Assembly (NCBI GenBank): GCA_024742765.1
Contig: JANSXT010000001.1
Location: 124,001 to 188,000, forward strand
Direction of reading: 5' to 3'
Origin: Phyllobacteriaceae bacterium
GTDB lineage: Bacteria > Pseudomonadota > Alphaproteobacteria > Rhizobiales > Rhizobiaceae
Length of the DNA stretch: 64,000 nucleotides
Shown here: positions 29,385-46,194 of the stretch, one piece after another
How positions within the stretch are numbered: the first letter of the stretch is position 1
Layout: each line of letters begins with the position of its first letter
The notes under the pieces: generated by a model
What the model saw: only the letters and a program-made list of their open reading frames with translations
Told to the model about the DNA's origin: nothing
Database searches by the model: none
Position numbers and translations under genes: made by a program

Positions 29385-30143
29385 CCTTTCTGCGGTCGGG
29401 GTTTGGCGTCAAATTGGCGTTCCACCGGTTTCGTGGACGGCTGTGGGCCAGCAGGTTCCAGCCATGGATCGTCGCAGCGCACGGCTCGGACGCGCGCAAG
29501 GCATTCAACACTGAGAGCGGCCCTCGCCGGCGCGATGACCGGTTCGGTTCGCAAGCTCACTGTGCAGCGTAGGGGTTCCTGGTTTTCGGCATGAAAAGCG
29601 CTCTCCGCCACGCCCGACAAACATATGCGAACAGTGCTCGCCGCCGGTTCTGCACCGCTTGACGCAGTTGGAACCCCGAGCCGGGCATCGTTCGGCCCCG
29701 TGATCCGGACATCGCGTTCCGTGATGCCGACCGGTTGCGCACGATCGCGCAGAGGATGGCGCGGTGATCCGAGGGCGATCAGGGTCGACAAGGGCAGCAA
29801 AGTCATCTCGCGCGCCTCGATCCGTGTTTCGCATGGTGCTGGTTTGGCGCGGCGAAACCGATTGCCAGATTTCGATCCGGGACGTATGATACCTCTTAAA
29901 TACCAGTGGGCGTTGATTGACCGAGAAAATGTCTCAAGACGGGTTCCGCGACGATGGGAAGGGCAGGGACGATCGTCAGCATCGCGGCGGCGCGTTCGGC
30001 TTGATCCATCGCCGCCGGTTTGGCCATGGACGCACGGCCGTCGCGCGTTGCGGTTTCCACCGCACGCCGGCGGGCCGCATCCTCCCGCAACCTCCCCTGC
30101 AGCCGGTCGAGACCGCTGCCGCCTGACCAAGGAGACGTCCAAC
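29385..30143. other. Gap between sugar operon and anmK
   Basis: This 759-bp stretch has no gene I would defend. Several frames are open on both strands without ribosome sites. It includes a short stretch resembling an IS3-family integrase (29775-29813) and, near 29897, AATACCA, a half-site shared with other promoters of the amino-sugar locus. The anmK promoter should lie at its right end. Confidence 0.5.
29775..29813 (+). pseudogene. Possible relic of an IS3-family transposase (DDE region)
   Basis: The translation reads [13 protein letters not shown], close to the second-Asp motif AIRVDNGSEFISR of IS3-type OrfB transposases. The bases before and after do not continue the family convincingly and no terminal repeats are seen, so this would be a small decayed fragment. 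Confidence 0.3.
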
Positions 30144-31268
30144 ATGCAGCCTGCCTGGGCAATCGGCCTGATGACCGGCACCGTTCTCGACGGGTTCATC
30201 GACATCGCAATGATCAAGACCGACGGCGAGACGATCGAGGCTTTCGGCCCCTGGGAGTTGGCGCCCTATCCGACCGACATACGATCGCTGTTGCGAGAGA
30301 CGTTTGAGGCCGCGCTGCAATGGCGCTTTTCGGGCCCGGAGCCGGAGATTTTTCGTCAAGCGGAGATCGCCCTGACCCGGGCGCAGTCGGAAGCAGTCAA
30401 CCGCTTTCTGGCCAAGCATGGCTATCAGGCGTCGGACATTGCGGCGGTCGGCTTCCATGGCCAGACCGTTCTGCATGCGGCGCCTGAAAACGGCCATCGC
30501 GGCCACACGCGGCAGCTTGGCGATGGCGCGATGATGGCCGGCATTATCGGCACCGACGTCGTCTACGATTTCCGTTCGGCCGACATGGAGGCCGGCGGAC
30601 AGGGCGCGCCCCTTTCGGCTATCTACCACAAGGCCATGCTGCGCAAGATCGAGGCGGGCAGCGACACGGCGATCCTCAATCTGGGCGGGGTCGCCAACAT
30701 CACCTGGTGCGACGGCGACGAGATGATGGCGTTCGACACCGGGCCGGCCAATGCGCCGGTCAATGACTGGGTCTCGGCCCATTCGGGCGCCGACATGGAT
30801 GTCGACGGCAAGATCGCCGCCAGCGGCTCCGTTGATGAGGACCGGCTGAAGAGTCTTCTGGAGCATCCCTACCTGTCTGCGGCATTCCCGAAATCGCTGG
30901 ACCGGTTCGATTTTCTGGCATCGATGGCCGACGGGCTGGGCCTCGCAGACGGCGCCGCCACGCTGACTGCCTTCACCGCCGGCTCGGTCGGCAAGGCGCT
31001 GGATCTGCTGCCGAGGCGGCCCAAACGGATCATCGTTTGCGGCGGCGGTCGCAAGAACCCCACCATGATGCGCGAAATGGCCAAACGCACCGGATGCGAG
31101 ATCCTTCTGGCCGACGATGTCGGGCTGCGCGGCGATGCGGTCGAGGCGGAGTGCTTTGCGTTTCTGGCGATCCGGTCGATGCGCCAGATGCCCTACAGCT
31201 ATCCGCTGACCACCGGCGTCAAGGCGCCGCAGACGGGCGGAAAACTGGCAACTTACGCGGCAGGCTGA
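30144..31268 (+). CDS. anmK: Anhydro-N-acetylmuramic acid kinase
   Basis: This 374-residue protein converts 1,6-anhydro-MurNAc, released by lytic transglycosylases, to MurNAc-6-phosphate with ATP. Family features: [71 protein letters not shown] and [12 protein letters not shown]. The N-terminal ATP motif reads [15 protein letters not shown] rather than the usual GLMSGTSLDGVD, a modest deviation. AAGGAGA lies before the ATG at 30144. The substrate of the next enzyme, MurQ, is its product, and murQ lies 10 kb away in the same locus. Confidence 0.92.
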
Positions 31269-31319
31269 ACCGGCGTCCGACGCATGCATCTGCCTCGTCC
31301 GGCGATCACGTGCGTCCGG

Positions 31320-32201
31320 TCAGCTTTGGCGCAGCCGCGGATCGAGATTGTCGCGCAGCGCATCGCCGAACAGGTTCAGTGCGAAGGCGACGATCAAAAT
31401 GGCGAGCCCCGAGAAGATCGCCGCCCAGGGCGCCAGAAACAGGAAATTGCGGCCCTCCGACAGCATCATGCCGAGCGAGGGAACCGGCGGCTGGGTTCCA
31501 AGCCCCAGGAACGACAGGGACGCTTCGACCAGGATCGCCGAGGACAGGAGCAGGCTGACCTGCACGAGGATAACGCTGGCGAGATTGGGCAGGATGTGGA
31601 AGGCGATGATGCGCAGGTCCGACGCGCCGATCGAGCGCGCGCTGAGCACATAGTCGCTCGATGCGATGACCAGAGCCGGCGCGCGCAGCAGGCGCGCGAA
31701 GATGGGCGTATAGACGATGGCGATCGCCGCCGCCGTCGGAAAGCTGCCGGGGCCGAGCAGCGCGATCACGCCGATCGCCAGCAGCATGACGGGAAAGGCG
31801 AACAGCACATCCATCAGCCGCATGATGACGCGTTCGGTCCAGCCGCGATAGTAGGCCGCCAAAAGCCCCAAAATGCTGCCGAAGAAAAGGGCCACACCCA
31901 CAGCACCCGCCGAGATCGCGAGCGACGCGCGCAGGCCATGCATGATCCGCGACAGAAGATCACGGCCAAGCTGGTCCGTGCCCAGCCAGTGCGCCGCCGA
32001 AGGCCCTTTCAGGCGCTGGATAATGTCCTGTTCGAGCGGATCGTAGGGCGCGATCCAGGGCGCGGCCACGGCCACGATGGTGATGAGGAAGATCATGCCG
32101 AGCGACAGATTGTAAAGGCTCGCCTCGGGCATTTTGAACCGCCGCGCCGGACGGGCGGGCAGGGGCTGTTCGGCCGGGTGTTCGATGGTGCCGCCGCTCA
32201 T
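31320..32201 (-). CDS. Oligopeptide-type ABC transporter permease (DppC/OppC)
   Basis: This 293-residue inner-membrane protein has about six spans, a DppC-type N-terminal region (LYNLSLGMIFLITIVAVAAP, HWLGTDQLGRDLLSRIMHGLRASL) and the permease loop SARSIGASDLRIIAFHILPNL (EAA-like motif). The start ATG at 32199-32201 overlaps the preceding permease stop (ATGA). It is the last gene of the leftward binding-protein/permease operon and converges on anmK. Its place among peptidoglycan-recycling genes suggests muropeptides or anhydro-amino sugars as cargo. Confidence 0.92.
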   Translation of the reverse strand: MSGGTIEHPAEQPLPARPARRFKMPEASLYNLSLGMIFLITIVAVAAPWIAPYDPLEQDIIQRLKGPSAAHWLGTDQLGRDLLSRIMHGLRASLAISAGAVGVALFFGSILGLLAAYYRGWTERVIMRLMDVLFAFPVMLLAIGVIALLGPGSFPTAAAIAIVYTPIFARLLRAPALVIASSDYVLSARSIGASDLRIIAFHILPNLASVILVQVSLLLSSAILVEASLSFLGLGTQPPVPSLGMMLSEGRNFLFLAPWAAIFSGLAILIVAFALNLFGDALRDNLDPRLRQS

Positions 32202-33151
32202 TCGGTGATCCTCGGATCGATGAGGGTGTAGATGACGTCGACCAGGAAATTGATCAGCACGAAGCTGCACGTCACCAGCAATATCGCCGCCTGAAGGAGC
32301 GGATAGTTGCGCTCGGCAATGGCGCCCAGGATCAGACGTCCCAAGCCGGGAATGGCGAAGACCTGCTCGATAACGATCGCGCCACTCAGAAGATAGCCGG
32401 CCATGATGCCGACGCTGGTCACGAAGGGAATGATCGCGTTGCGCAGCGCGTGCCGGTAGAGGATGCGCCGCGCGGGAACGCCCTTGGCGCGCGCGGTGCG
32501 GATATAGTCCTGCTGCATCGCCTCGAGCAGTGTCGAGCGCAAAAGGCGCGCCAGGTTCGCCATGATCGGCAGGCTGAGCGCGAAGGCGGGCAACATCATT
32601 CGCTGAATGTTGCCGATCGGATCGGTCGTAAAGGGCACATAGCCCAGCATTTGCAGGCTCGGCGCCACGGTCGACAGGACCAGGATCATGATGATCCCCA
32701 GCCAGAAGGGCGGCACCGTCAGCCCGATGACCGAGCCGGCCTGGACAAAGGCCTCGCCGCGCCGGCCCCTTATGTTGGCCATCAGGATGCCGAGCGGGAT
32801 GGCGAGAATGATGGCCGTCACAAGCGCCAGAAGGGTCAGTTGCAGCGTCGGCCACACATGGTGGCCGATCTCCTCGATCACCGGCCGGCCGGTCCAGATC
32901 GACACGCCGAAATCGCCGCGCAGAACGTTCGACAGCCAGACGAAATATTGCTCATGGATCGGCAGGTCGAGGCCGAGCCGCGTGCGGATGGCTGCGATCC
33001 GGTCGGGCGTCACCTCGGCATTAGCGCCGAGCATGATCGCGACCGCATCGCCGGGGATCATGCGGATGAAGCCGAAAACGAGAATGGAGACGCCGAAAAT
33101 GACGATCGCCAGATCGATCAGCCGGTCACGCAGTCGTTTCAGCAACACCAT
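32198..33151 (-). CDS. Oligopeptide-type ABC transporter permease (DppB/OppB)
   Basis: This 317-residue protein has the DppB layout: an N-terminal span (LIDLAIVIFGVSILVFGFIRMIPGD), the periplasmic loop RLGLDLPIHEQYFVWLSNVLRGDFGVSIWTG, and the EAA-type loop DYIRTARAKGVPARRILYRHALRNA that contacts the ATPase. It forms the membrane channel with the DppC-type subunit. It lies 80 bp after the binding-protein gene with a hairpin between. Confidence 0.93.
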   Translation of the reverse strand: MVLLKRLRDRLIDLAIVIFGVSILVFGFIRMIPGDAVAIMLGANAEVTPDRIAAIRTRLGLDLPIHEQYFVWLSNVLRGDFGVSIWTGRPVIEEIGHHVWPTLQLTLLALVTAIILAIPLGILMANIRGRRGEAFVQAGSVIGLTVPPFWLGIIMILVLSTVAPSLQMLGYVPFTTDPIGNIQRMMLPAFALSLPIMANLARLLRSTLLEAMQQDYIRTARAKGVPARRILYRHALRNAIIPFVTSVGIMAGYLLSGAIVIEQVFAIPGLGRLILGAIAERNYPLLQAAILLVTCSFVLINFLVDVIYTLIDPRITE

Positions 33152-33188
33152 GGGCTGTCTTCATACCGCAAGGGCGGCACGGGCGACA

Positions 33189-33217
33189 TTGGCGGAACGC
33201 GCGCAGCACTCCGCCAA
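33189..33217 (-). other. Intercistronic hairpin after the binding-protein gene
   Basis: A perfect 8-bp stem, TTGGCGGA (33189-33196) with TCCGCCAA (33210-33217), and a 13-base loop lie between the binding-protein stop and the first permease. No T-run follows. It fits an mRNA-stabilising or partial-termination element. Confidence 0.5.
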
Positions 33218-33231
33218 ACCGTCCGTACCCG

Positions 33232-34740
33232 TTATTCGGTGACCGACGTGCCGCCCAGCGACCGCATCGAACGGGTCGGGCTGATCGAATAGCCGTCCAC
33301 ATTGTCGCGCATCGCCGTGTAGAGCTGGCCATAGGTCAGGAACGCGGCTGGGCCCTGGCAGGCCAGTTCCCGCTGCGCGTCCGCATAGATCTCCTGCCGC
33401 TTGGCAGTATCGGTCTCCTCGCGCCCGGCATCGAGCAGGCCATCGAGCGTTTCGTTCGAATATTTGAAGACGTTGGTCGAGCCGCCGGTGCGGAAAGTGC
33501 GGTAGAAATAATCGTCCGGCTCGATCGTTCCCGAGTTGAGCGAGACGAACATGTCGAAATCCGAATTGCGCCAGTTCTGCACGAACTGGCCGATCTCGGG
33601 AATGTCGAGTTCGACATTGATGCCGATGGCCGCCAATTGCTGCTGGACGACCTGCGCGATGCCCTTGGTGCTGTCGCGCGGCAGGACCAGCAGCGTTGCC
33701 TCGACCGGCGTTTCGATGCCGGCTTCTTCAAGAAGCGCCCGGGCCCTGTCGGCGGACGGCGTGAAGCAGCCAAACTCGTCGAGCGGCAATGCGTAATTGG
33801 TCAGCGCGGGCGACAGCGGACCGCCCGGCACGCCGGCCCCGAACAGGGCGGCGGCGACGATATCGTCGCGGTTGATCGCATAGTTGATCGCTTCGCGCAC
33901 CTTGGCATTGTCGAAGGGCGGCCGCGAGACGTTGATGCCGATCAGCGAATAGGCCAGTTCCAGCGTCTCCTCAAGCTGGACGCCGCCGGTGCCCTGGAAC
34001 TGCTGCGCCATCACGCCATCGATGTTGGGCAGCATCTGGTACTGGCCCGAATTCAGGCCGACCTGGCGGGTCGCCGCTTCCGGCACGATGTTGAAGACGA
34101 CGCCCTCGAGCGCCGGCCGGCCCTCGTCCCAATAGTCCGCATTGGCTTCAAGCGTGATCGCCACATCGGGCTGCCAGGAAACGAACTTGAACGGGCCGGT
34201 GCCGTCGGGCGCCCTTTGCAGCGTGTCCGTGTCGTCTTCATATTTGGCCGGCACGATGGCGATCGAGGTCAGCGAGGACAGGAGCGGTGCCGAAGGCGCC
34301 GACAGGTTGAGAACAACCGTGCTGTCGTCGGGTGTCTCGATGCTGTCGACCGCTGCAAGCCGGCTGGCGAGCGGCGAACCGGTGTTTTCGGCCAGCACGC
34401 GGTTGAGGCTGGAGGCCACGTCCGCCGATGTCATCGCATCGCCGCCATGGAACGTCACGCCCTCGCGCAGGGTGAACGTATAGGTCGTCTTGTCGTCGGA
34501 AATCTGCCAGTCTGAAGCGAGGCCCGAAACGATGTTCAGATCATTGTCCAGCGCCGTCAGCCCTTCATAGATCGTGCCGTCGATGATCTGGAACGAGGAA
34601 AATGCAGTGACGATGTGCGGATCGAGACCGGAGGGCGACTGCTCGACGGCCACTTGCAGGGGCGCCGACAGGGCAGGGCCGGAAACGACGGCTGCCACGG
34701 CCACGCCGCATGCCAAAGTGAAGGTGCGAAGGCTTTTCAT
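33232..34740 (-). CDS. ABC transporter substrate-binding protein, family 5
   Basis: This 502-residue protein has a signal peptide (residues 1-25, ending GPALSA) and an SBP_bac_5 (Dpp/Opp) fold: QSPSGLDPHIVTAFSSFQIIDG, YTFTLREGVTFHGGDAMTSADV (family signature), GTGPFKFVSWQPD and INYAINRDDIV. It probably binds a peptide or muropeptide-like ligand in the periplasm. The ATG at 34738-34740 has GGGAGAA upstream. The divergent region to the ATPase genes holds TTGACA (complement of 34866-34871) and the motif at 34831-34849. Confidence 0.9.
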   Translation of the reverse strand: MKSLRTFTLACGVAVAAVVSGPALSAPLQVAVEQSPSGLDPHIVTAFSSFQIIDGTIYEGLTALDNDLNIVSGLASDWQISDDKTTYTFTLREGVTFHGGDAMTSADVASSLNRVLAENTGSPLASRLAAVDSIETPDDSTVVLNLSAPSAPLLSSLTSIAIVPAKYEDDTDTLQRAPDGTGPFKFVSWQPDVAITLEANADYWDEGRPALEGVVFNIVPEAATRQVGLNSGQYQMLPNIDGVMAQQFQGTGGVQLEETLELAYSLIGINVSRPPFDNAKVREAINYAINRDDIVAAALFGAGVPGGPLSPALTNYALPLDEFGCFTPSADRARALLEEAGIETPVEATLLVLPRDSTKGIAQVVQQQLAAIGINVELDIPEIGQFVQNWRNSDFDMFVSLNSGTIEPDDYFYRTFRTGGSTNVFKYSNETLDGLLDAGREETDTAKRQEIYADAQRELACQGPAAFLTYGQLYTAMRDNVDGYSISPTRSMRSLGGTSVTE

Positions 34741-34830
34741 GATATGACGTTCTCCCAAGACGGTTTCGCTCCCGAGACTATGTTGGTGGCCGCGCCTTTG
34801 TTGACATTCCAGGGCCAAGCTGGTGACATA

Positions 34831-34849
34831 GTCCACCTCAATACCATTT
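34831..34849. promoter_or_regulatory. Shared 19-bp motif, candidate GntR operator (copy 1)
   Basis: GTCCACCTCAATACCATTT lies in the divergent promoter between the binding-protein and ATPase genes. It matches the murA/murQ promoter copy at 41263-41281 at 15 of 19 positions. It lies about 20 bp downstream of a leftward TTGACA, where a repressor would block transcription. The HutC/NagR-type GntR protein at 38175-38978 is the natural ligand. Confidence 0.5.
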
Positions 34850-34951
34850 CTCACCTCGTTAGCATTGTCAATGTAACCAATAACGTACGAGTTGGAATTC
34901 AGATTGCGGCAGAGATCACTCTGTCCCACCCGTTCCGGAGCCCACATTTTC

Positions 34952-35935
34952 GTGCAGGAAAGCTCAATCGGCGACGTTCAGGCCCCGCCGCTTCTGGCGA
35001 TTGAAGACCTCCATCTGTCGACCCGCTCGGCGGTGCTGGTGGAAGGCATCAATCTGACCGTCAACAAGGGCGAGATGGTCGGCCTGTTGGGGGAATCGGG
35101 ATGCGGAAAGACGATCACCGCCCTGTCGGTCCTTGGGCTTCTTCCGAAACATGCTGTCAAGGTCTCGCGCGGCCGGATCCTCTTTGAGCAGACCAACATG
35201 GCCGATCTGGGCGAAACGGAACTGAACCGCATTCGCGGAAACCGCATGGCGATGATCTTCCAGGAACCGATGACATCGCTCAATCCGATCATGACCATCG
35301 GGGCGCAGATCGGCGAAGCGCTGGAAATCCATCGCAAGATGGCCGGTCCGGAGCGCAAGGCGGAGGTCAAGCGGCTTCTGGGCCTGGTCGGCCTGCCGAG
35401 CGAAGACGCGCAACTGCAGCGCTATCCGTTCCAACTGTCGGGCGGCCAGAGACAGCGGGTGATGATCGCCATCGCCTTGGCCTGCGAGCCGGCATTGCTG
35501 ATCGCCGACGAACCGACCACGGCGCTCGACGTGACCATTCAGGCGCAGATCCTCGACCTGATCGCCGAAATGCGTAAACGGTTCGGTATGGCCTGCGTGA
35601 TGGTCACGCACGATCTGGGCGTGATCGCCGAGACCTGCGACCGGGCAGTGGTCATGTATGCGGGCCGGATTGCCGAGCAGGGGCCCGTCAATGACCTCTT
35701 CGCCAGCCCGATCCATCGCTACACACAAGCGCTTGTCGGGACCATCCCGGCAGCCAATCCGCCGGGATCGCAGCTGCCGGCGATACCGGGCGCGGTGCCG
35801 CCGCCGGGGGAACGGCCCAAGGGCTGCGCGTTTGCCGGGCGCTGCGATTTCGCAACCGACAGGTGCGCCACCGAACCACCGCCGGAGGTGCGCCGTGGCG
35901 CCCATGCCGGCTATTGCTGGAACCCGGCCTCATGA
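34952..35935 (+). CDS. Oligopeptide-type ABC transporter ATPase (DppD)
   Basis: This 327-residue ATPase has Walker [10 protein letters not shown]-loop [10 protein letters not shown], signature [12 protein letters not shown], Walker [13 protein letters not shown] and switch His in VTHDLGV, then the oligopeptide-transporter C-terminal domain with four cysteines ([16 protein letters not shown]), which in this family can hold an Fe-S cluster. The start is taken as GTG at 34952 with GGAG upstream. It overlaps the next ATPase (ATGA). Unlike most dpp operons, the two ATPases are transcribed away from the permeases. Confidence 0.92.
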
Positions 35936-36921
35936 GCGCGCTCTTGTCCGTGCGCGATCTGGTCAAGCATTATCCCACCGGCTCGGGCGGCAAGGTGCTG
36001 GCGCTGGACGGAATTTCCTTCGATCTCGATGCGGGCGAGATTCTCGGCATTGTCGGCGAATCGGGATGCGGCAAGAGCACGCTCGGCCGCACCATCATGC
36101 GTCTCGACGATCCGACCAGCGGCGAGATCATCTATGGCGGGCGCGACATCGCAACGATCGGCAAGCGCGATCTCAAACAGGCGCGGCGCGACATCCAGAT
36201 GGTCTTCCAGGACCCGTTCGGCTCGCTCAATCCGCGCCACACGGTCGGCACCATCGTCGGCGAACCGCTTGTCGTCCACGGTGTTCCGGATCGGGCGCGC
36301 CGCATTGCCGAACTGCTCGATCTCGTCGGCCTTCCCAAGAGCGCGGCGGACCGCCTGCCGCATCAATTCTCCGGCGGCCAGCGCCAGCGCATCGCGATCG
36401 CCCGCGCGCTGGCGATCAGCCCCAAGATTATCGTCGCCGACGAGGCCGTCTCCGCGCTCGATGTCTCGATCCAGTCGCAGATCATCAACCTTCTGGCCAA
36501 GCTGCGGGCCGAACTCGGTCTGTCGATCATCTTCATCAGCCACGACCTGTCGGTCGTCCGCCATGTCAGCGACCGGATCGGCGTGATGTATTTCGGCAAG
36601 CTGGTCGAGTATGGCCCCTCGCAGTCAATCTTCGAGGCGCCGCGCCACCCCTATACGCGGGCGCTGCTGTCCGCCGTGCCGCGCATTCCCGGCCGCGAAC
36701 TGGCGCAATCGGCGGTGCCCGAACGGATCGTGCTGACCGGCGATGTGCCCAATATCGCCCACCGGCCCGAAGGCTGCCTGTTCCACCCCCGCTGCTACTG
36801 GAAACAGTCGCGCTGCGATCAGGCGGCACCGGAACTGCGCGTCTTGGAGGGCGACACCTTCCAGTCGCGCAGATGCGCCTGCCACTTCGCCGACGACCCG
36901 GCGGTGACCACGCCGAACTGA
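35932..36921 (+). CDS. Oligopeptide-type ABC transporter ATPase (DppF)
   Basis: This 329-residue protein is the second ATPase: Walker [25 protein letters not shown], signature [15 protein letters not shown], Walker [13 protein letters not shown] and ISHDLSVV. The C-terminal domain again has four cysteines ([16 protein letters not shown] and RRCACHF). It pairs with the upstream DppD-type ATPase. It ends 4 bp from the convergent nagA gene. Confidence 0.92.
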
Positions 36922-36925
36922 CGCG

Positions 36926-38074
36926 CTAACCCAATGAGGCGGGTTCGCCGGCCATATGGACGCCGGTGATCTCAAGACCTTCAGTCAGTGTGACGATGTC
37001 TGCGCGCGCGCCGGGCCGCAGCGAGCCGATTGTGTTGAGCCCGAGCATGCCGGCCGGCACCGATGTCGCCATGCGCAGGGCATCGACGATGGAAACCCCG
37101 CATGCGCGCACCGCAAACCCGATGGCGGAGACCATGTCCAGATCGGAGCCGGCCAGCGTTCCGTCATCGATCGTCAAGCGCCCGTCCTCGCGGTGGACGG
37201 TGCGGCCATTCAGTTCGAACGTGTCGGACGGATCGCCCACCGAGGACATCGCGTCGGTGACCAGCGTCAGCCGCGCCTTGGGCCCCGCCGCAAAGACCAT
37301 CGACAGCACGGACGGGTGGACATGGTGCCCGTCGGCGATCAGCCCGCAATAGATGGAAGGGTTTTCAAGCGCCGCTCCGATCAGCCCGGGCGCGCGATGG
37401 TGCAGCGGCTCCATGGCGTTGAAAAGATGGGTGACCGCCTGCGCCCCAGCGGCGAAATAGCGCCGTGCCGTGTCGTGATCCGCCGCCGTATGGCCAAGGC
37501 TGACGATGGTTCCGGCCTCCGCCAGCGCCGCGACATCGTCGACCGTGGCGTTTTCCGGCGCGACCGTGGCGACGATGCGGCCAATATCCCGGCGCCGGAG
37601 CAAAGCCAGATCGTCCTGCTCCATCGGCCGGATGAAGCGCGCATCGTGAACGCCCTTGCGCGCGACCGAGATATGCGGGCCTTCGAAGTGAATGCCGGCA
37701 ATGCCGGGCGTGCCTTGCTTGATGGACTCCGCCGCCGCCTCGGCGGCCGCCTTGGTCACGGCCGGCGCATCGGTGATCACGGTCGGCAGCAAGGCGGTCG
37801 TCCCAAAGCGCCGATGGGCGTCGGCGATCCGGGCAAGGCCCTCGACACCGGGATTGTCGTTGAACAGCACGCCGCCACCGCCATTGACCTGCCAGTCGAC
37901 AAAGCCCGGTGACAGCCATTCGGCTTCCGTGTCGATGATCCGGCTGCGCGGCGGCGTATCGGCCAGCGGGACGAGGCCCCTGACCCTGCCATCCTCGACG
38001 ACGAGCTGGCGGTCCCGGTGGACGACCGAACCGTCGAAAATCACGCGCGCCCTGAAGACCGTGAGCCCGCTCAT
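36926..38074 (-). CDS. nagA: N-acetylglucosamine-6-phosphate deacetylase
   Basis: This 382-residue amidohydrolase removes acetate from GlcNAc-6-P, giving GlcN-6-P. Metal and substrate residues are visible: GIHFEGPHIS (metal Glu), SLGHTAAD and AVTHLFNAMEPLHHR (metal His), ADGHHVHP, and LVTDAMSSVG with the catalytic Asp. Length is normal. The ATG at 38072-38074 overlaps the stop of a 34-codon frame (ATATGA), so translation is coupled. It follows murA, the kinase and gntR in one leftward operon. MurQ, encoded across the divergent promoter, supplies its substrate. Confidence 0.94.
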   Translation of the reverse strand: MSGLTVFRARVIFDGSVVHRDRQLVVEDGRVRGLVPLADTPPRSRIIDTEAEWLSPGFVDWQVNGGGGVLFNDNPGVEGLARIADAHRRFGTTALLPTVITDAPAVTKAAAEAAAESIKQGTPGIAGIHFEGPHISVARKGVHDARFIRPMEQDDLALLRRRDIGRIVATVAPENATVDDVAALAEAGTIVSLGHTAADHDTARRYFAAGAQAVTHLFNAMEPLHHRAPGLIGAALENPSIYCGLIADGHHVHPSVLSMVFAAGPKARLTLVTDAMSSVGDPSDTFELNGRTVHREDGRLTIDDGTLAGSDLDMVSAIGFAVRACGVSIVDALRMATSVPAGMLGLNTIGSLRPGARADIVTLTEGLEITGVHMAGEPASLG

Positions 38075-38175
38075 ATCGTCTCGGTGACCTTGCTGAATGG
38101 TCCGGGCAAAACCCGATCGGGATCGGCGACGCAAGCGGCAATGGCCCGCATTTCCCGCTGCACAAGGCCTGTCAT
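38071..38175 (-). pseudogene. 34-codon remnant of a SIS-family GlcN-6-P deaminase (nagB-II type)
   Basis: An open frame encodes MTGLVQREMRAIAACVAD followed by PDRVLPGPFSKVTETI and stop. Its ATG overlaps the gntR stop (TGATG) and its TGA overlaps the nagA start (ATATGA). The first half resembles the N-terminus of GlmS-like (SIS) deaminases, M-x-R-E-I-x-x-I-P-x-x-A, and the second half their C-terminal end, DPDxPxxLxKVTET. The roughly 300 codons between, containing both SIS domains, are missing in frame. In many Proteobacteria the order is gntR-nagB(SIS)-nagA, so an internal deletion is the simplest reading. The peptide may still couple translation of nagA. Confidence 0.65.
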
Positions 38176-38978
38176 CAGCGTTTGCCCTGCCTTGTCCTTG
38201 GCCGTGCACCGGGAAGCGTCAGTTCGGCGATGAAATCGTAGCGGTCACCCCGGTAGTAGGAGCGGGTGAACTCGATCACCCGGCCGCTGCGCAAACGCGA
38301 CAGGCGTTCGATGTGGAGCGCCGGCTCGCCTTCCTCGCACTTGAGCAGTTCCGCCTCGAACGCGGGCAGGCGGCAGGCATGCATGCGCTGCAACGCCTTT
38401 TCCGGCAGCGCGCCCTGTGTCGCCAGCGTCTGATAGAGCGAATCCTGCATGTCGTCGATGTCGGGCAGGATGCTGGCCGGCACGACGGCCATGTCGATGG
38501 CCAGCGGCTCGCCGTCCGCCAGCCGCAGGCGGTGCAGGCGCGCGACCTGCTCGCCCGGCGAAAGCCCCAGCACCATCGTCTCTTCGGTGGACGGATTGTC
38601 GATCTTCTTTTCGATCCATCGGGCGCTCGGCACATGGCCCAGCGAGTGCATGTCCTCGCTGAACCCGGTCAGGGTCCCGAGCGACTGCTCGATGCGGTCT
38701 TCTTCGTCGCTGACATAGGTGCCCGAACCGTGGCGTTGGCACAAAAGCCCTTCATTGACCAGAAGTTCGAGACCCTTGCGCACCGTCACCCGCGACAGGC
38801 CGGTCGCCCCGACGATGGTCCGTTCCGAGGGCAGCGCGTCGCCGGCCTTCCAGCTTCCGCTCTCGATCAGTTCGCGGATCCGGTTGGCCAACTGGATGTA
38901 ACGGGGCGTCGGATTGTTCTGGTCGATCGGACCATAGTCCCGGAAAATCTTGTCGATCGTGACTGGATAATCGCCCAA
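38175..38978 (-). CDS. GntR/HutC-family regulator (NagR-like)
   Basis: This 267-residue protein has an N-terminal winged helix (about residues 25-95, PRYIQLANRIRELIESGSWKAGDALPSERTIVGATGLSRVTVRKGLELLVNEGLL) and a C-terminal UTRA ligand domain (LHRLRLADGEPLAIDMAVVP, FTRSYYRGDRYDF). This group includes NagR/YvoA, which senses GlcNAc-6-P or GlcN-6-P. The only plausible start is TTG at 38976-38978, and an in-frame ATG with a site is absent. It is flanked by the amino-sugar kinase (80 bp) and the deaminase remnant. Confidence 0.88.
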   Translation of the reverse strand: MGDYPVTIDKIFRDYGPIDQNNPTPRYIQLANRIRELIESGSWKAGDALPSERTIVGATGLSRVTVRKGLELLVNEGLLCQRHGSGTYVSDEEDRIEQSLGTLTGFSEDMHSLGHVPSARWIEKKIDNPSTEETMVLGLSPGEQVARLHRLRLADGEPLAIDMAVVPASILPDIDDMQDSLYQTLATQGALPEKALQRMHACRLPAFEAELLKCEEGEPALHIERLSRLRSGRVIEFTRSYYRGDRYDFIAELTLPGARPRTRQGKR

Positions 38979-39058
38979 AGCCTACCCCATTTCCCCGGTC
39001 CGCACTGCAGCCGCAATGTGGCGGTTTTTTCGCATTGCCCGGTCCTGTTTCCACATCC

Positions 39059-39952
39059 TCACTGGCCGATCGCCGGCCGGCCGGCAAGGATCGCAGCCCC
39101 GTCCAGGCTGTCGCCCAGTTGTGGGCTCAGGCGGCGGCGCAGGTCAGGCGCCAGCCAGCTCTCGATCACGCTCGCCAGCCCGCCGATCAGCGACAGCCGC
39201 TCGGCGCCGCGTTCGAACAGCGTGCGCCCGATGGTCTCGATCGCAGCAGCCGCGTCCTGCATGATGCGCCGGGCCGCGGGGTCGCCATCGTCGGCGTGGC
39301 GAACGACGATCGGCGCAAAGGCGGCATAGTCGGTTGCCGTCGCCTGATCCATCCAATGGACCGCATTGCCCGGATCGTCGTCAAAACGGCCCATGATCTC
39401 GCCGAGCAGCGCGGTCATGGCCATCCGGCCGTCATGGGCCATCATCGCCGCGCGGACGACGCGCAATCCCAGATAGGCGCCGCTGCCCTCGTCCGATATC
39501 GGAAACCCGTAACCGCCTATCTTGATCAGCTGCCCCGACAGGCGCGCCAGGCCGCAGCTTCCCGTGCCGACGATGACGATCGCGCCATCGCGCCCGCCAT
39601 GCGCGCCAAGACAGGCGATCTCGCCGTCGGTTGCAAAATGCGCCGACGCAAATGGGTGTTCCATCGCCTCCAGCGCCTCCCGTGCGCCCTGCCGCGACAG
39701 GCCGGCGACGCCGATACCGGCACGGATGTGCCCGGCGTCCGATGGTCCGATGCCCGCTTCGTCCAGCGCGTTCGAAAAGGCGGTCGAAATCGCTGCCCAG
39801 GATGCTTCGACACCGAACCGCGTTGCCGCAGGGCCGGCCAGCCCGCCGCCGATCACCTTGCCGTCGGCGGTTTCCAGCCGCGCGCGGCAGCCCGTGCCGC
39901 CGCCATCGACCGCCATGAAGAGCGCCCCGGCACCGCCTTTGGCCGTCGTCAT
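39059..39952 (-). CDS. BadF/BcrA-family amino-sugar kinase (GlcNAc/MurNAc kinase)
   Basis: This 297-residue ASKHA-fold kinase has the phosphate-1 motif FMAVDGGGTGCRARL, IGVAGLSRQGA, phosphate-2 VIVGTGSCGLAR, SDEGSGAYLGLRV and the adenosine region LIGGLASVIESWLAPDL. The same family includes human-type NagK and clostridial MurK, which phosphorylates both GlcNAc and MurNAc at O-6. Here it would feed GlcNAc to NagA and perhaps MurNAc to MurQ. Its ATG overlaps the murA stop (ATGA). Confidence 0.85.
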   Translation of the reverse strand: MTTAKGGAGALFMAVDGGGTGCRARLETADGKVIGGGLAGPAATRFGVEASWAAISTAFSNALDEAGIGPSDAGHIRAGIGVAGLSRQGAREALEAMEHPFASAHFATDGEIACLGAHGGRDGAIVIVGTGSCGLARLSGQLIKIGGYGFPISDEGSGAYLGLRVVRAAMMAHDGRMAMTALLGEIMGRFDDDPGNAVHWMDQATATDYAAFAPIVVRHADDGDPAARRIMQDAAAAIETIGRTLFERGAERLSLIGGLASVIESWLAPDLRRRLSPQLGDSLDGAAILAGRPAIGQ

Positions 39953-41208
39953 TCGGCGACCCTTTCGATGGCCGCGCCGCAGCGGCGCAGCTTGCCTTCA
40001 ATGTCCTCAAAGCCGCGGTCGAGATGATAGACCCGGTGCACGACGGTTTCGCCCTTGGCGACAAGACCGGCCAGCACCAGCGACATGGAGGCGCGCAGAT
40101 CGGTTGCCATCACCTCGGCGCCGTGCAGTTCGCCGACGCCCGTCACGATGGCGGTCGATCCGTCGTGGCGGATATCGGCGCCCATGCGCTGCAATTCCGG
40201 CACATGCATAAAGCGCGATTCAAAAACCCGCTCTCGGATCACCGAAACGCCGTCGGCAAGGCACATCAGCGCCATGAACTGCGCCTGCAGATCGGTCGGA
40301 AAGCCCGGAAACGGTTCGGTGGCGACGTCGACGCTCTTCAGCGCGCCGCCGCGCCGTGCGATCAGCCCCCGGTCGGACGGATAAATCACGATGCCCGCCT
40401 GTTCGAGGATCTGGCACGCAGCGCCCAGATGTTCGAGGCGCGCGCCGATGATTTCCAACTCGCCGCCGGTCATTGCCGCCGCGATCAGATAGCTGGCCGC
40501 TTCGATCCGGTCGGGCACGATCGCTTGGCTGACATCATTCCAGCTTTCGGTGCCCTGAACCGTGATCTTGTAGGTTCCGGCACCCTCGACCCTTGCGCCC
40601 AGCCCGTTGAGGAAGGCGGCCAGATCGACGATTTCCGGCTCGCGCGCCGCATTGACGATTTCCGTCTCGCCGCGGGCGCCGGCCGCCGCCATCAGCGCTG
40701 TGTGGGTCGCACCCACCGACGCCATCGGCAGCGCGATGCGCGCGCCGCGCAAGCCATCGGGCGCACGCACGTCATAGATGCCGCCGCCGAAATCGACTTG
40801 GGCGCCGAGCGCCTCTAGCGCGTTCAGGTGAAGATCGACGGGCCGCGTTCCGATGGCGCAGCCGCCCGGCCGTGAAATCCGCGTGCGGCCGAACCGCACG
40901 AGAAGCGGTGCGAGCACGAGGAAGGAGGCGCGCATCTTGCGCATGATGTCGTAGGGCGTATCGGCGGCACGCAGATCAGCCGTGGAGACTTCGACGCGCC
41001 CATGGACGGGATCGCTGGTCTCGACACCACACAAGCCGAGCAGTTCGAGCATGGAGCGGACGTCACCGACATCGGGAAGGTTGGACAGGCGCACCCGGCT
41101 GCCGCCGAGCATCGATGCCGCCAGGATGGGAAGCGCGGCATTCTTGGCTCCGGCGACCTGCATCGAGCCGGAAAAGGGACGGCCGCCCGCGATAATCAGC
41201 TTGTCCAA
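39949..41208 (-). CDS. murA: UDP-N-acetylglucosamine 1-carboxyvinyltransferase
   Basis: This 419-residue enzyme transfers enolpyruvate from PEP to UDP-GlcNAc, the first committed step of peptidoglycan synthesis. The K22-N23 pair (GAKNAALPILA) and catalytic C117 in RPGGCAIGTRPVDLH are intact, so it should be active and fosfomycin-sensitive. RPVDLH, FPTDLQAQFMAL and RADLRAS-type motifs (ATDLRASMSLVLAG) are present. Being first in an operon with amino-sugar kinase, gntR and nagA is unusual. It may be a second MurA tied to recycling, but I cannot see the rest of the genome. Confidence 0.94.
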   Translation of the reverse strand: MDKLIIAGGRPFSGSMQVAGAKNAALPILAASMLGGSRVRLSNLPDVGDVRSMLELLGLCGVETSDPVHGRVEVSTADLRAADTPYDIMRKMRASFLVLAPLLVRFGRTRISRPGGCAIGTRPVDLHLNALEALGAQVDFGGGIYDVRAPDGLRGARIALPMASVGATHTALMAAAGARGETEIVNAAREPEIVDLAAFLNGLGARVEGAGTYKITVQGTESWNDVSQAIVPDRIEAASYLIAAAMTGGELEIIGARLEHLGAACQILEQAGIVIYPSDRGLIARRGGALKSVDVATEPFPGFPTDLQAQFMALMCLADGVSVIRERVFESRFMHVPELQRMGADIRHDGSTAIVTGVGELHGAEVMATDLRASMSLVLAGLVAKGETVVHRVYHLDRGFEDIEGKLRRCGAAIERVAE

Positions 41209-41262
41209 CGCAACCCCGTTACTTGATCATACCTCTCCCATTACCGGATAAATCCAATTATT

Positions 41263-41410: not shown

Positions 41411-42334
41411 TTGGCCCTGTCAGCGAACAGCGAAATTCGCCCGAACACCGAAGCGCACGATCTCGATTCGCCGTTTCTGGACAGTCTGGATGATGGCGCG
41501 CTCTTCGACGCCCTGCTGGGCGGTCAGGCCAAGGCGATCGATGCCGTCAAGGCGGCGCAGTCGCCGATCATGAATGCTGTTTTGGCCGCTGCTGCCCGGC
41601 TCGAAAAACCGAGTGCGCGCCTGATCTATTGCGGCGCAGGCACGTCGGGGCGCGTTGCGCTGCTCGACGGTGTCGAACTGAACCCGACATTCAACTGGCC
41701 CGATCAACGGCTCCATATCCTCATGGCCGGCGGCACGGCGAGCATCGTCAAGGCGCAGGAGGGCGCCGAAGACGATGAAGCGGCAGCAGCGCGTGCCGTG
41801 GGCGAGCTCGGCCTTGACGAGAACGATGTCGTTATCGGTCTCGCCGCCAGCGGCACCACGCCCTTCGTGGTCGCGGCGCTGAAGGCGGCCAACCGGAGCG
41901 GTGCCCTGACGATCGGCATTGCCAACAATGGGCGGACGCCGGTCCTCGACGAGGCCGATGTCCCGGTGTTTCTGGATACCGGTTCGGAAGCGCTTGCCGG
42001 ATCGACCCGTCTGGCCGCCGGCACCAGCCAGAAGATCGCGCTCAACATCTTCTCGACCGCGCTGATGGTCCGGCTGGGCAAGGTGTACCGGGGGCGGATG
42101 ATCGACATGCGCGTCACCAACCGCAAGCTGCGCAGCCGGGCGCTGGGCATCGTGCGCGACATTGTGGGCTGCGACGAGCAGACCGCGCTGGAGGCACTTG
42201 AAGCCAGCGACTACGACGTCAAGCGGGCCATTCTGATGGCGCGCGGCGCCGGCCGGGACGAGGCCGTGGCGCTGCTCGACACGCATGGCGGCCGGATCAG
42301 CGAGGCGGATCAGGACTGGATGAGCCGGAACTGA
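41411..42334 (+). CDS. murQ: N-acetylmuramic acid 6-phosphate etherase
   Basis: This 307-residue SIS-fold enzyme cleaves the lactyl ether of MurNAc-6-P to GlcNAc-6-P and D-lactate. Landmarks: IYCGAGTSGRVALLDGVELNPTFNWP (first catalytic Glu in the segment usually written DASECPPTF), AQEGAEDD (second catalytic Glu), GLAASGTTPFVVAAL and a C-terminal helical UBA-like part. The start is TTG at 41411 with AGGGA about eight bases before. It is divergent from murA and shares its control region. Its substrate comes from AnmK (30144) and possibly the BadF kinase. Confidence 0.92.
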   Translation: MALSANSEIRPNTEAHDLDSPFLDSLDDGALFDALLGGQAKAIDAVKAAQSPIMNAVLAAAARLEKPSARLIYCGAGTSGRVALLDGVELNPTFNWPDQRLHILMAGGTASIVKAQEGAEDDEAAAARAVGELGLDENDVVIGLAASGTTPFVVAALKAANRSGALTIGIANNGRTPVLDEADVPVFLDTGSEALAGSTRLAAGTSQKIALNIFSTALMVRLGKVYRGRMIDMRVTNRKLRSRALGIVRDIVGCDEQTALEALEASDYDVKRAILMARGAGRDEAVALLDTHGGRISEADQDWMSRN

Positions 42335-42386: not shown

Positions 42387-42743
42387 TCAGGCCGCGTTGC
42401 CTGTTGCCTGTGCCGGGCGCCACAGGGCCACGAACAGCGCCAGCGCGGCCAGCCAGTCGGCGGCGATGATGGCGATTGTCCACCATTGCGGGACGGGCGA
42501 GTGGGTCCACAGCGAACCGAGGGCGACCGTGCCGCCGATCATCATCGCGATGAAGGCGACATAGGCCAGCCAGCGCCAGCCGCGCGTCAGACCATAGGCA
42601 ATCACGGCATAGACCAATCCGACCGGGATCAGACGCAGCGCATCGGCCGAAAATCCGCCGACGAGGAAAGCGAACACATGCAGTGCCGCGCTGACCGCGA
42701 TGAACAGGGCGCCGAGGCGATAGGGTCCGTTCAGAAGAGACAT
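42387..42743 (-). CDS. Small integral membrane protein, unknown
   Basis: This 118-residue protein has four hydrophobic spans (LGALFIAVSAALHVFAFLV, LIPVGLVYAVIAYGL, WLAYVAFIAMMIGGTVAL, TIAIIAADWLAALALFVAL). AAGGAGG lies 11 bases before the ATG at 42741-42743. I do not recognise a family. It follows the cytochrome gene on the same strand after 16 bp, so it may belong to the oxidoreductase operon. Confidence 0.6.
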   Translation of the reverse strand: MSLLNGPYRLGALFIAVSAALHVFAFLVGGFSADALRLIPVGLVYAVIAYGLTRGWRWLAYVAFIAMMIGGTVALGSLWTHSPVPQWWTIAIIAADWLAALALFVALWRPAQATGNAA

Positions 42744-42759
42744 GGTGCGGTGCGCCTCC

Positions 42760-43377
42760 TTAGCCGTCACTGGCGCAGGGCATGCCTGCAACGCCCCAGG
42801 CCAGCACGTCGTTCACATGCTCCTGCAGGCTGTAGGGTGCCGGCTCCCGCCCGCCGCCGGGGTTCCAGGCCCAGTGCAGGATCAGATCGTGATCAAGATG
42901 GGCGGCCAGATCGAGGAAGGTCCGATTGCCGTTGCGGTCCGGGTCGCGGAGTTGGTTGCAGATTTCGTCCGACGATTTTCCGAACCACTCGGCTTCGACG
43001 GGCGCCAATTGCCAGGGCATCGCCACTTGCGGGGCGGCGTGCGGCACATCGTTCAGCCCGGCACGCTCGAAATGGCAGGTCGCACATGTCACATATTCAA
43101 GGCCGATGCGGCTCTCGCCGGCATTGATGTTCATGCCGTGCGGCCTGGCTTCGCCATAGCTTGGCCCCGACCACATGGGGATATTGTCTTCGCCCACATG
43201 ACAGTTCGAGCAGCGCGGATGTGAGGTCACTTCGAAGATGCGGTTCCAGGCCGCGAGACCTTCCTCGCGTGTCACCGACCCTTCGGCGGGCGGCTCGATG
43301 ACGACATTTTCGCCGGCGGCCCAGACAAGCGGCGCGCCGATCAACAAGGCGGCCGCTGCGATTGCAATCTTCCTCAT
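42760..43377 (-). CDS. Diheme c-type cytochrome, isoquinoline 1-oxidoreductase-associated
   Basis: This 205-residue protein has a signal peptide (residues 1-20) and two heme-attachment sites, CSNCH (56-60) and CATCH (98-102). It ends in a helical domain with KSSDEICNQLRDPDRNGNR and HDLILHWAWNPGGGR. It is therefore periplasmic. Located 10 bp after the Tat-exported molybdenum subunit, it probably carries electrons from that enzyme to the respiratory chain. Similar genes are annotated in alphaproteobacteria as isoquinoline 1-oxidoreductase subunit. Confidence 0.85.
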   Translation of the reverse strand: MRKIAIAAAALLIGAPLVWAAGENVVIEPPAEGSVTREEGLAAWNRIFEVTSHPRCSNCHVGEDNIPMWSGPSYGEARPHGMNINAGESRIGLEYVTCATCHFERAGLNDVPHAAPQVAMPWQLAPVEAEWFGKSSDEICNQLRDPDRNGNRTFLDLAAHLDHDLILHWAWNPGGGREPAPYSLQEHVNDVLAWGVAGMPCASDG

Positions 43378-43387
43378 CGCCGGCTCC

Positions 43388-45628
43388 TCAGACGAAATCG
43401 ATATGGTGCCACAGCGGCAGTTCGCGGATGCGCTGGCCGGTGGCGGCGAAGATTGCGTTGGCGAGCGCCGGCGCGGCGGGCGGCACCGGCGGCTCGCCGA
43501 CGCCGCGGATCTTGTGGCCGTTCTCCAGACCCCGGACCATGATCTCGGGGCATTGGTACATCCGCATGCCCTCATGGGCGTGATAATTGGTCTGCTCGGC
43601 CATGCCGTCCGAATAGGTGATCTCGCAATTCATCGCGTGACCAAGGCCGAAGACGACACCGCCCTGGACGAGGTTCTCGAAGTTCACCGGATCGACGACG
43701 GTGCCGACATCGCAGGCGACCCAGACCTTGTCGATGCGGATGCCCCGATCAGTCGCGGTCACCTGCACCACCTCGGCGGTCGGCACGCCGAAGCTTTCGA
43801 CGAATGCGACGCCCTTGCCGGTGCCCGGCGCGAGCTCGGCGCCCCAGTCCGACATCTCCGCCACCGCTTCCAGCACCTTGCGCGAGACGTCGTGGCTCAT
43901 CAGGCGGATGCGTTCTGCCATCGGGTCGGCGTCTGCCTCATGGATCAGCTCATCGAGGAAACAGTCGAAGGCAAAGCCGCCGCCGGGTGCGCCGACCGAA
44001 CGCCAGGACGAGACCGGCGCCAGTTCAGGCACGCGATAGGCGCGCATGCGGAAGTTCGGCACATCGTAAGGATTGTTCCATGCGCCGGCGGCGATCTGGC
44101 TGTCGGGTCCGGGCACGGGGATGTTGGCGCGGCCCATCTGAGATGCGATCACCGAGGGTGCTGCGCCCTGAAGATCGATCGAGACGACCTTGCCGTCGGC
44201 GACCGTGCCCTTGCCGCGCGCCATCGAGATGTGGCGCGGGAAATCATGGGCGAAATCCTCCTCGCGGCTGTAGACCAGTTTGACCGGTGTGCCGCGCATC
44301 TGGTTGGCGATCTCGGTCGCCTGTTTGACATGCTCGAATTCGAGCCGGTGGCCGAAGCTGCCGCCGATGAACTGGTTGTGCAGCGTGACCTGTTCGGGGC
44401 GGTGGCCGGTGATGTCGGCGACCAGCACCTGCAATTGCCGCTGCAATTGGTGGCCGGTCCACACTTCGACCATGTCGTCATCGACGCGCACGATGGCGCC
44501 GAGCGGCTCCAGCGGCGCATGCGCCACATAGGGCGAGCGATATTCGGCCTCGAACACATTGCTCTCGGCCTGGGCGGCATCGACATCGCCGTCATTGCGC
44601 CATTCGCTGTCGAGCTGGTCCGATGTGAAGGAAGCGGCAACAGCGTCCCAATGGTCGGCCTGTTCGGCGGGGTAGGGCGCCGGGGCCCAGTCGAGCTCCA
44701 GCGCGTCGGCGGCCTTGAAGGCGCGCCAAGTGTTGTCGGCGATCACGGCGACGCCGCCAGTGATCTCGACCACATCCCTGACCCCGCGCATGGCGAGCGC
44801 TGCCGACGCGTCATAGCCGTTCAGTTCGCCGCCCTGGCGCGGGTTCACCTTGATGGCGGCGATCACCATGTCGTCGACTTCGAGATCGATCGTATAGTCG
44901 AGCGTGCCGGTCGATTTGCCGACAATGTCGAGCCGCTGCATCGGCTTGCCGATCAGCCGCCATTGCGAGGGGGCGCGCAATTCGACCGCGGCCACCGGTG
45001 CGATGCTGGCCGCATCGGCCGCAAGCTCCGTATAGGCAAGCTCCGACCCGTCCGGCAGTTGCACAGCAGCATTGGCGGTTGTGAGCTGGTCGATGGCGAT
45101 GCCGGTGCGTTGCGAGGCGGCCTGTTTGAGCGTTTCGCGGGCCACGGCGCCCGCCTGGCGCAGCTTGACGAAACTGTCGGGCATGGCGGTCGATCCGCCG
45201 GTGCCCTGAAGGCCCAGCAGCTTCATCACACCGCCCATGATGCCGCGCGTCGTCTCGGCCGGAAAACTCTCATCGGTTGCCATGAAGGGCACGCCCTCAT
45301 CGGCCATCGCCGTGTTCCAGTAGGCCGGGCTCGGATCGCCGAAGCTGATCTCGAACTGGCCGAACTCGACATCGAGTTCCTCGGCGATCAGCGCGGCCTG
45401 CGCCGAGACAACGCCCTGGCCCTTGTCGGCATGCGGCGTGATCAGCGTGATCTTATCGCTGTCGATCATCACCCAGGGATTGAAGGTCGCTGCGCCGTCG
45501 GGAAGTTCGGCGGCGAGCGGATTGTCGTAGGGGCGGCGGACCATATAGGTGCCAAAGGCGACACCGCCCATGATTGCGGCCGACCCGATGAGGAATGAAC
45601 GTCGGGCGATTGTGCGTGCGCGTCCCAT
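43388..45628 (-). CDS. Molybdenum hydroxylase large subunit (IorB-like)
   Basis: This 746-residue molybdopterin cytosine-dinucleotide subunit belongs to the xanthine dehydrogenase family. The N-terminus has a twin-arginine motif (ARRSFLIGSAA), so it is exported folded. SFGHRLEFEHVKQATEIAN, SWRSVGAPGGGFAFDCFLDEL (MPT contact) and AFVESFGVPTAEVVQV follow; the last includes the region of the base-catalytic loop. It hydroxylates an N-heteroaromatic or aldehyde substrate at a carbon next to nitrogen; isoquinoline is the prototype, the true substrate is unknown. It is 3 bp from the Fe-S subunit. Confidence 0.88.
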   Translation of the reverse strand: MGRARTIARRSFLIGSAAIMGGVAFGTYMVRRPYDNPLAAELPDGAATFNPWVMIDSDKITLITPHADKGQGVVSAQAALIAEELDVEFGQFEISFGDPSPAYWNTAMADEGVPFMATDESFPAETTRGIMGGVMKLLGLQGTGGSTAMPDSFVKLRQAGAVARETLKQAASQRTGIAIDQLTTANAAVQLPDGSELAYTELAADAASIAPVAAVELRAPSQWRLIGKPMQRLDIVGKSTGTLDYTIDLEVDDMVIAAIKVNPRQGGELNGYDASAALAMRGVRDVVEITGGVAVIADNTWRAFKAADALELDWAPAPYPAEQADHWDAVAASFTSDQLDSEWRNDGDVDAAQAESNVFEAEYRSPYVAHAPLEPLGAIVRVDDDMVEVWTGHQLQRQLQVLVADITGHRPEQVTLHNQFIGGSFGHRLEFEHVKQATEIANQMRGTPVKLVYSREEDFAHDFPRHISMARGKGTVADGKVVSIDLQGAAPSVIASQMGRANIPVPGPDSQIAAGAWNNPYDVPNFRMRAYRVPELAPVSSWRSVGAPGGGFAFDCFLDELIHEADADPMAERIRLMSHDVSRKVLEAVAEMSDWGAELAPGTGKGVAFVESFGVPTAEVVQVTATDRGIRIDKVWVACDVGTVVDPVNFENLVQGGVVFGLGHAMNCEITYSDGMAEQTNYHAHEGMRMYQCPEIMVRGLENGHKIRGVGEPPVPPAAPALANAIFAATGQRIRELPLWHHIDFV

Positions 45629-45631
45629 GGC

Positions 45632-46093
45632 TCAGGCCTCCCGCAGCTTGGCGGCGGCGGTCTTGATCGCCGCCCGAATGCGCGGATAGGTGCCGCATCG
45701 GCAAAGATTGCCGCTCATCACAAGATCGATGTCCTCGTCGGTCGGCTCGGGATTGAAGTCGAGCATGGAAGCCGCCTGCATGATCTGGCCCGACTGGCAA
45801 TAACCGCATTGCGCGACTTGGTGCTCGACCCAGGCTTCCTGGACCGCGTGCAGCGCCTCGGGCGTGCCCAGCCCCTCGATCGTGGTGATCTCGGCACCTT
45901 CGGCCGAGGCCGCCGCGACCTGGCAGCTTCGCACCGCCATGCCGTCCAGATGCACCGTGCAGGCGCCGCACTGGGCAACGCCGCAACCATATTTGACGCC
46001 GGTGATCCCGAGCTCGTCGCGCAGCACCCACAGGAGCGGCATGTCGTCTTCGACATCGACCGCATGAATTTGACCGTTCACCGTCAACTGCAT
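45632..46093 (-). CDS. [2Fe-2S] subunit of molybdenum hydroxylase (IorA-like)
   Basis: This 153-residue protein binds two [2Fe-2S] clusters. The plant-ferredoxin-type cluster uses [15 protein letters not shown] and a further Cys (RSCQVA). The second uses [10 protein letters not shown] and CRCGTYPRI. It passes electrons from the molybdenum centre. There is no flavin subunit gene, consistent with a periplasmic enzyme that delivers to a cytochrome. It is the first gene of the leftward operon, and the divergent TetR gene starts about 100 bp away. Confidence 0.93.
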
Positions 46094-46113
46094 GGCAATC
46101 CCCGATAGCGCAT

Positions 46114-46156
46114 TTGGACATTTGTATTATAAGACGCTAAACGTAATTATGTCCAA
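46114..46156. promoter_or_regulatory. Inverted repeat in the TetR/oxidoreductase control region
   Basis: TTGGACAT (46114-46121) and ATGTCCAA (46149-46156) are perfect inverted arms 27 bp apart in the 101-bp divergent gap, within AT-rich DNA (TTATAAGACG). They may be two half-sites or two separate dimer sites for the TetR protein. Confidence 0.5.
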
Positions 46157-46194
46157 TTTGACAATGAAACGCAAGCGGGAAAGAACCGCCCGAC

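Follow-up and report, generated by a model that had tools for sequence, protein, structure and literature searches.

The gene cluster around nagA

The window analyzed here is a stretch of 64,000 nucleotides from an Oceaniradius genome (hereafter G000), and it carries a cluster that, from the family matches of its genes (anmK, murQ, murA, nagA and a nagK-like gene), looks like one for peptidoglycan recycling. On the minus strand lie nagA, the gene for GlcNAc-6-P deacetylase (36926..38074; TIGR00221, 277.1 bits over a cut-off of 225.65), a gene for a GntR/UTRA regulator (38175..38978; PF00392 and PF07702, both over cut-off), a gene for an N-acetylglucosamine kinase-like protein of the BadF/BadG family (39059..39952; PF01869 over cut-off), whose sole NCBIfam match, NF046058 (NagK_SO3507), stays at 257.4 bits below its cut-off of 370, and murA, encoding UDP-GlcNAc 1-carboxyvinyltransferase (39949..41208; TIGR01072, 517 bits, over cut-off). 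It may be observed in passing that murA thus sits inside an amino-sugar recycling cluster, where it overlaps the nagK-like gene by 4 bases. The plus strand carries murQ, for MurNAc-6-P etherase (41411..42334; NF003915, 326.7 bits, over cut-off), and anmK, for anhydro-MurNAc kinase, which is contained in an open reading frame at 29625..31268 whose match begins only at residue 175 (NF007141, 483.9 bits, over cut-off). The interval between anmK and nagA (31320..36921, both strands) is filled by genes for a peptide-type ABC transporter, assigned on a mixed basis: the best family matches of the binding protein and of one ATPase fall below their cut-offs, and the permeases and second ATPase were assigned by eye from their open reading frames.

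Between gntR and nagA there remains an open frame of 34 codons (38071..38175, minus strand), which translates as MTGLVQREMRAIAACVADPDRVLPGPFSKVTETI*, that is, 34 residues and a stop. Its start codon has 1 base in common with the gntR stop (TGATG) and its stop codon shares 4 with the nagA start (ATGA, within ATATGA), exactly as the preliminary description of this DNA had stated. The same description took the frame to be an in-frame remnant of a SIS-type glucosamine-6-phosphate (GlcN-6-P) deaminase, both halves of which should align to such enzymes. At the protein level no such alignment was obtained, as the 34 residues matched no Pfam or NCBIfam family, were not reported at E <= 5 by a profile built from 18 NagB-II proteins, and at this length give neither the SIS domains nor the full-length profile match by which a functional NagB-II is recognized. 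Because none of these protein profiles gave a match, the homology of the frame rests on DNA and synteny, and there both halves do align, as follows.

An intact deaminase gene in relatives and its deletion in this genome

Relatives were found via nagA, and the closest among them, Oceaniradius stylonematis StC1 (G002; NZ_QFWV02000006.1), has an intact gene of 346 amino acids between gntR and nagA, with both joints identical to those of the 34-codon frame. The best NCBIfam match of its product, over the full length, is NagB-II (NF046059, NagB_SO3506), the family for whose Shewanella member SIS-type GlcN-6-P deaminase activity has been reported (PMC2996990, in excerpt). The gene resembles known NagB-II genes also in its place, as the order nagR-nagB-II-nagA is described for Xanthomonas campestris (PMC13055268, in excerpt). 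A congener (G004) likewise carries an intact NagB-II gene between gntR and nagA, 76% identical to that of O. stylonematis, and in another genus (G022) an intact copy of 59% identity adjoins nagA. However, unlike established NagB-II, the intact genes of the relatives do not reach the 430 bits that NCBIfam sets as its cut-off (293.3 and 290.6 in two scans of O. stylonematis, 278.7 in G004), and the deaminase activity of their products is thus a prediction.

The window and the O. stylonematis genome are collinear by blastn over window positions 29851-41214, interrupted at 38125/38126, where O. stylonematis has 936 extra bases, equal to 312 codons and in frame; the flanks of this point are 89.2% identical over 8.3 kb and 91.0% identical over 3.1 kb. 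In consequence, about 90% of the deaminase gene, its middle, is missing from the present genome, which, in contrast to a NagB-II gene, retains two ends only. When the 105 bases of the frame were fitted without gaps to the joined ends of the O. stylonematis gene, 84 of them matched with the best split after base 50, whereas 20,000 stretches of the same length, drawn at random from both strands of the window and fitted in the same way, averaged 31.8 matches and peaked at 53. The blastn break and the two-piece fit together assign the 5' piece (38126..38175, minus strand) to bases 1-50, or approximately codons 1-17, of the intact gene and the 3' piece (38071..38125, minus strand) to its final 55 bases, so that about 17 codons are fused in frame to the last 18, the stop being counted. 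For the 3' piece, an alignment with gaps that had been drawn by eye was dropped in favor of this ungapped version, which needs no extra insertion. The exact joint is fixed to within a few bases, as splits after bases 49, 50, 51 and 53 score 83-84; the event can be placed this closely because both ends of the gene and its overlaps have survived unusually well. No direct repeat could be assigned to the joint by reading the sequences of relatives, which need not show the ancestral bases at this point.

The two ends are thus homologous to those of a NagB-II-type gene, follow each other in the right order and line up with an intact copy, and full-length genes of the ancestral type occupy the same locus in O. 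stylonematis and G004. On this DNA evidence the 34-codon frame is the in-frame deletion remnant of a SIS-type (NagB-II) gene for a predicted GlcN-6-P deaminase, in agreement with the preliminary description, and the possibility raised there, that relatives might share the short frame with no full-length ancestor, is answered by the intact copies. Comparison with the relatives also places the deletion on the branch leading to this Oceaniradius genome, as far as the compared sequences go.

It could be argued that the gap is an artefact of assembly or cultivation and that the gene is intact in nature, as a single assembly of the species was examined. However, the two pieces meet in frame at a point in the middle of a contig of 341 kb, and each has accumulated its own differences from O. 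stylonematis. Further, the missing 312 codons have no tblastn match in the window at E <= 1, and a search of the whole genome with the O. stylonematis NagB-II protein returned one match at E <= 0.001, on contig C25. As this sole NagB-II-like protein is only 42% identical, the deleted part is not found elsewhere in the genome, and an artefact is considered very improbable.

The comparison with O. stylonematis also revealed, beyond murQ, a stretch of about 4.1 kb (window 42404-46548) without a match in that genome, where its two flanks are nearly contiguous; of its open reading frames, two of 746 and 153 amino acids look by eye like a molybdenum oxidoreductase and the iron-sulphur subunit belonging to it.

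Apparently relaxed constraint on the 34-codon frame

Relative to O. stylonematis, the frame shows 18 amino-acid-changing and 4 silent substitutions, counts that are small, that include differences predating the deletion, and that are affected by uncertain alignment of the codons beside the joint. The nagA genes of the same two genomes differ by 56 amino-acid-changing and 108 silent substitutions (Fisher p = 3e-5 against the frame), and the intact NagB-II genes of O. stylonematis and G004 by 115 and 147 (p = 0.0007). From this excess of amino-acid changes over both nagA and the intact gene, such as a pseudogene under relaxed constraint would have relative to its neighbors, it follows that the frame no longer appears constrained as a protein. 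The final 7 codons (KVTETI*) are the same as in O. stylonematis; these lie immediately 5' of and across the nagA start. That the frame remains open, and that its start and stop overlap both neighbors, might suggest that it now encodes a functional small protein or a leader peptide. However, its differences from O. stylonematis are mostly amino-acid-changing, it was seen in this genome only, with the gene intact in the two others of the five genus genomes that have a close nagA, and a scan of ten further nagA loci for remnants (see below) turned up no in-frame scar. A present function of this kind is accordingly given hardly any credence.

Other predicted deaminases in the genome and genus

Classical NagB and NagB-II have unrelated folds and are predicted to share substrate and product. 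The preliminary description had proposed that an operon for catabolism became one for salvage when the deaminase was lost, and a search of the rest of the genome for nagB or another SIS-type deaminase bears on this directly. Eight SIS-domain matches were found in G000, including murQ and another protein of the window (about 16647-17027). The NagB-II-like gene on contig C25 adjoins genes for a ribose-type ABC transporter and for a YhfX-like protein of alanine-racemase fold, in an apparent operon (L088:10857-15987). Outside the window, contig C42 carries a classical NagB gene (TIGR00502, 267.7 bits over a cut-off of 236.9) together with a second nagA and genes for a sugar ABC transporter, the binding protein of which has weak family matches only. 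In its place beside a nagA this NagB resembles those of Caulobacter-type GlcNAc clusters: in C. crescentus a NagB homologue is clustered with NagA2, and GlcN-6-P is the branch point between the cell wall and NagB (PMC13046382, in excerpt). With a classical NagB and a distant NagB-II-like protein encoded, the conversion of GlcN-6-P to Fru-6-P is presumably kept, and on this gene content the genome should still be able to perform it. The salvage-operon claim therefore goes too far when applied to the genome as a whole, since a classical NagB is retained. The comparison does show the milder claim, that the cluster itself no longer brings a predicted deaminase of its own.

Within the genus, the nagB stretch of C42 recurs in G001 (14.7 kb at 87% identity), where NagB again exceeds the TIGR00502 cut-off. 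Neither O. stylonematis nor G004 has a match to the classical NagB protein of G000 at E <= 0.001, and the TIGR00502 search gave nothing in the former and 19.7 bits in the latter. G003 carries both a NagB-II (49% identity) and a distant NagB (36%). Thus, of the five genus genomes, two combine NagB-II at the scar locus with no NagB, and NagB is present in the one that carries the scar.

An adaptive reading would hold that the deletion dedicates the cluster to salvage, so that peptidoglycan sugars pass to UDP-GlcNAc and catabolism is left to a separately regulated nagB-nagA. This would fit with the presence of anmK, murQ, nagK-like, nagA and murA in one cluster, with a classical NagB on another contig beside its own nagA and ABC transporter, and with a deletion that left the nagA start and both overlaps intact. 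However, redundancy explains the deletion equally well, and O. stylonematis and G004 retain the deaminase in a collinear cluster, which therefore works with it. An adaptive origin is thus regarded as unlikely.

Distribution in the family and further scars

The survey was extended to 121 genomes of the family, taken from a larger group and searched at E-value limits of 1e-40 for NagA and NagB-II and 1e-20 for NagB. NagA was found in 84 of these genomes, NagB-II in 79 and NagB in 17. In 72 of the 84 genomes with nagA, a nagA copy is preceded by a NagB-II gene at a distance of 300 bases or less. Of these 72, 9 have NagB, compared with 7 of the remaining 12 (p = 0.0012), an association that ignores relatedness, depends on the E-value limits and counts G000 itself among the 12. 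As nine genomes keep both deaminases, NagB does not force the loss of NagB-II. Three of the 12 (G009, G024 and G092) have NagB-II nearby but in another position, downstream of nagA in G009 and G092 and about 1 kb upstream in G024, and they do not represent losses for that reason. Six of the 84 have no NagB-II match, and five of these six have NagB.

Counted by gene, NagB-II is missing from the 300 bases upstream in 18 of 92 nagA copies, among which is the window's own. Ten of these loci, from eight genomes, were scanned with the profile of 18 NagB-II proteins; the rest lie outside this set, namely those of G024, G092 and G009, a single copy in each of G082 and G098, and, in G000 and G004, the second nagA locus. 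Scars were seen at two of the ten, in G007 and at one of G134's two loci, and none at the other eight. In G134 the scar lies between gntR and nagA (L105:4683-4896) and measures 214 bases from ATG to stop, its pieces, about 45 residues from the N-terminus (35 bits) and about 22 from the C-terminus (23 bits), being out of frame with each other; its congener G016 has an intact NagB-II gene, and G134 also carries a classical NagB (278.6 bits). In G007 only the C-terminal tail of NagB-II is left, overlapping nagA (L100:1264-1338, minus strand; 12 bits, E = 0.008). Both scars are apparently independent of the one in the window. Weaker profile matches (E 1.7e-6 to 4.1) in frames of 65-365 amino acids at L102, L103, L105, L106 and L107 were rejected as scars and taken to be other SIS-domain proteins or chance. 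A frame of 365 residues that precedes the second nagA copy in G134 gave 18 bits with the NagB-II profile.

A model for the loss of the deaminase gene

Taken together, these observations are best read as ordinary gene replacement, here unusually plain to see, in which a redundant deaminase gene decayed inside a cluster for peptidoglycan recycling. In its details the model, which is held with high confidence, proposes that one in-frame deletion of 936 bases removed the middle of a nagB-II-type gene, that the frame was then relaxed with the nagA start kept, and that the loss was tolerated through a redundant deaminase. The last codons of the scar would have been kept for the nagA start region that they contain, a cause suggested by the substitution pattern. 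The loss would be tolerable because the genome has another deaminase, the classical NagB and perhaps the distant NagB-II paralogue, whose activities are predicted from their families. GlcN-6-P made by NagA in this cluster would then flow to UDP-GlcNAc and the cell wall, except when the NagB encoded elsewhere is expressed.

The model has the marks of non-orthologous gene displacement, as two unrelated deaminases are partly complementary in the genus and family and scars are left behind, although this scar differs from the usual case in how well its ends and overlaps are kept. An unrelated second deaminase is present where the first was lost in G000 and in G134. The scar offers what looks like a clean case of one enzyme family giving way to an unrelated one at the branch point between cell wall and carbon source. 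A literature search over titles and abstract openings, whose silence is a weak absence, returned nothing on this scar or on loss of NagB-II in Oceaniradius.

A broader proposal is that repeated loss of NagB-II leaves the 3' end of the gene (as in G000, G134 and G007) since it carries the translation start of nagA; in G000 the scar would still couple nagA to gntR, so that a recycling operon loses its catabolic exit but not its downstream gene, and catabolism falls to a separately controlled nagB. This extension is offered tentatively and is rather doubtful. What the scar does preserve is the translation-start architecture of the next gene, and an in-frame scar beside an intact close relative allows one to test whether the deletions that persist are determined by selection on the gene downstream. 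Not all cases are explained by redundancy, given that G007 has the tail and no GlcN-6-P deaminase was found there among the NagB-II and NagB families, its NagB-II profile match being a 643-residue frame that is GlmS-like by eye and its NagB match reaching 20 bits. With nagA and a NagB-II tail in place, G007 is a better candidate than the present genome for a salvage-only state.
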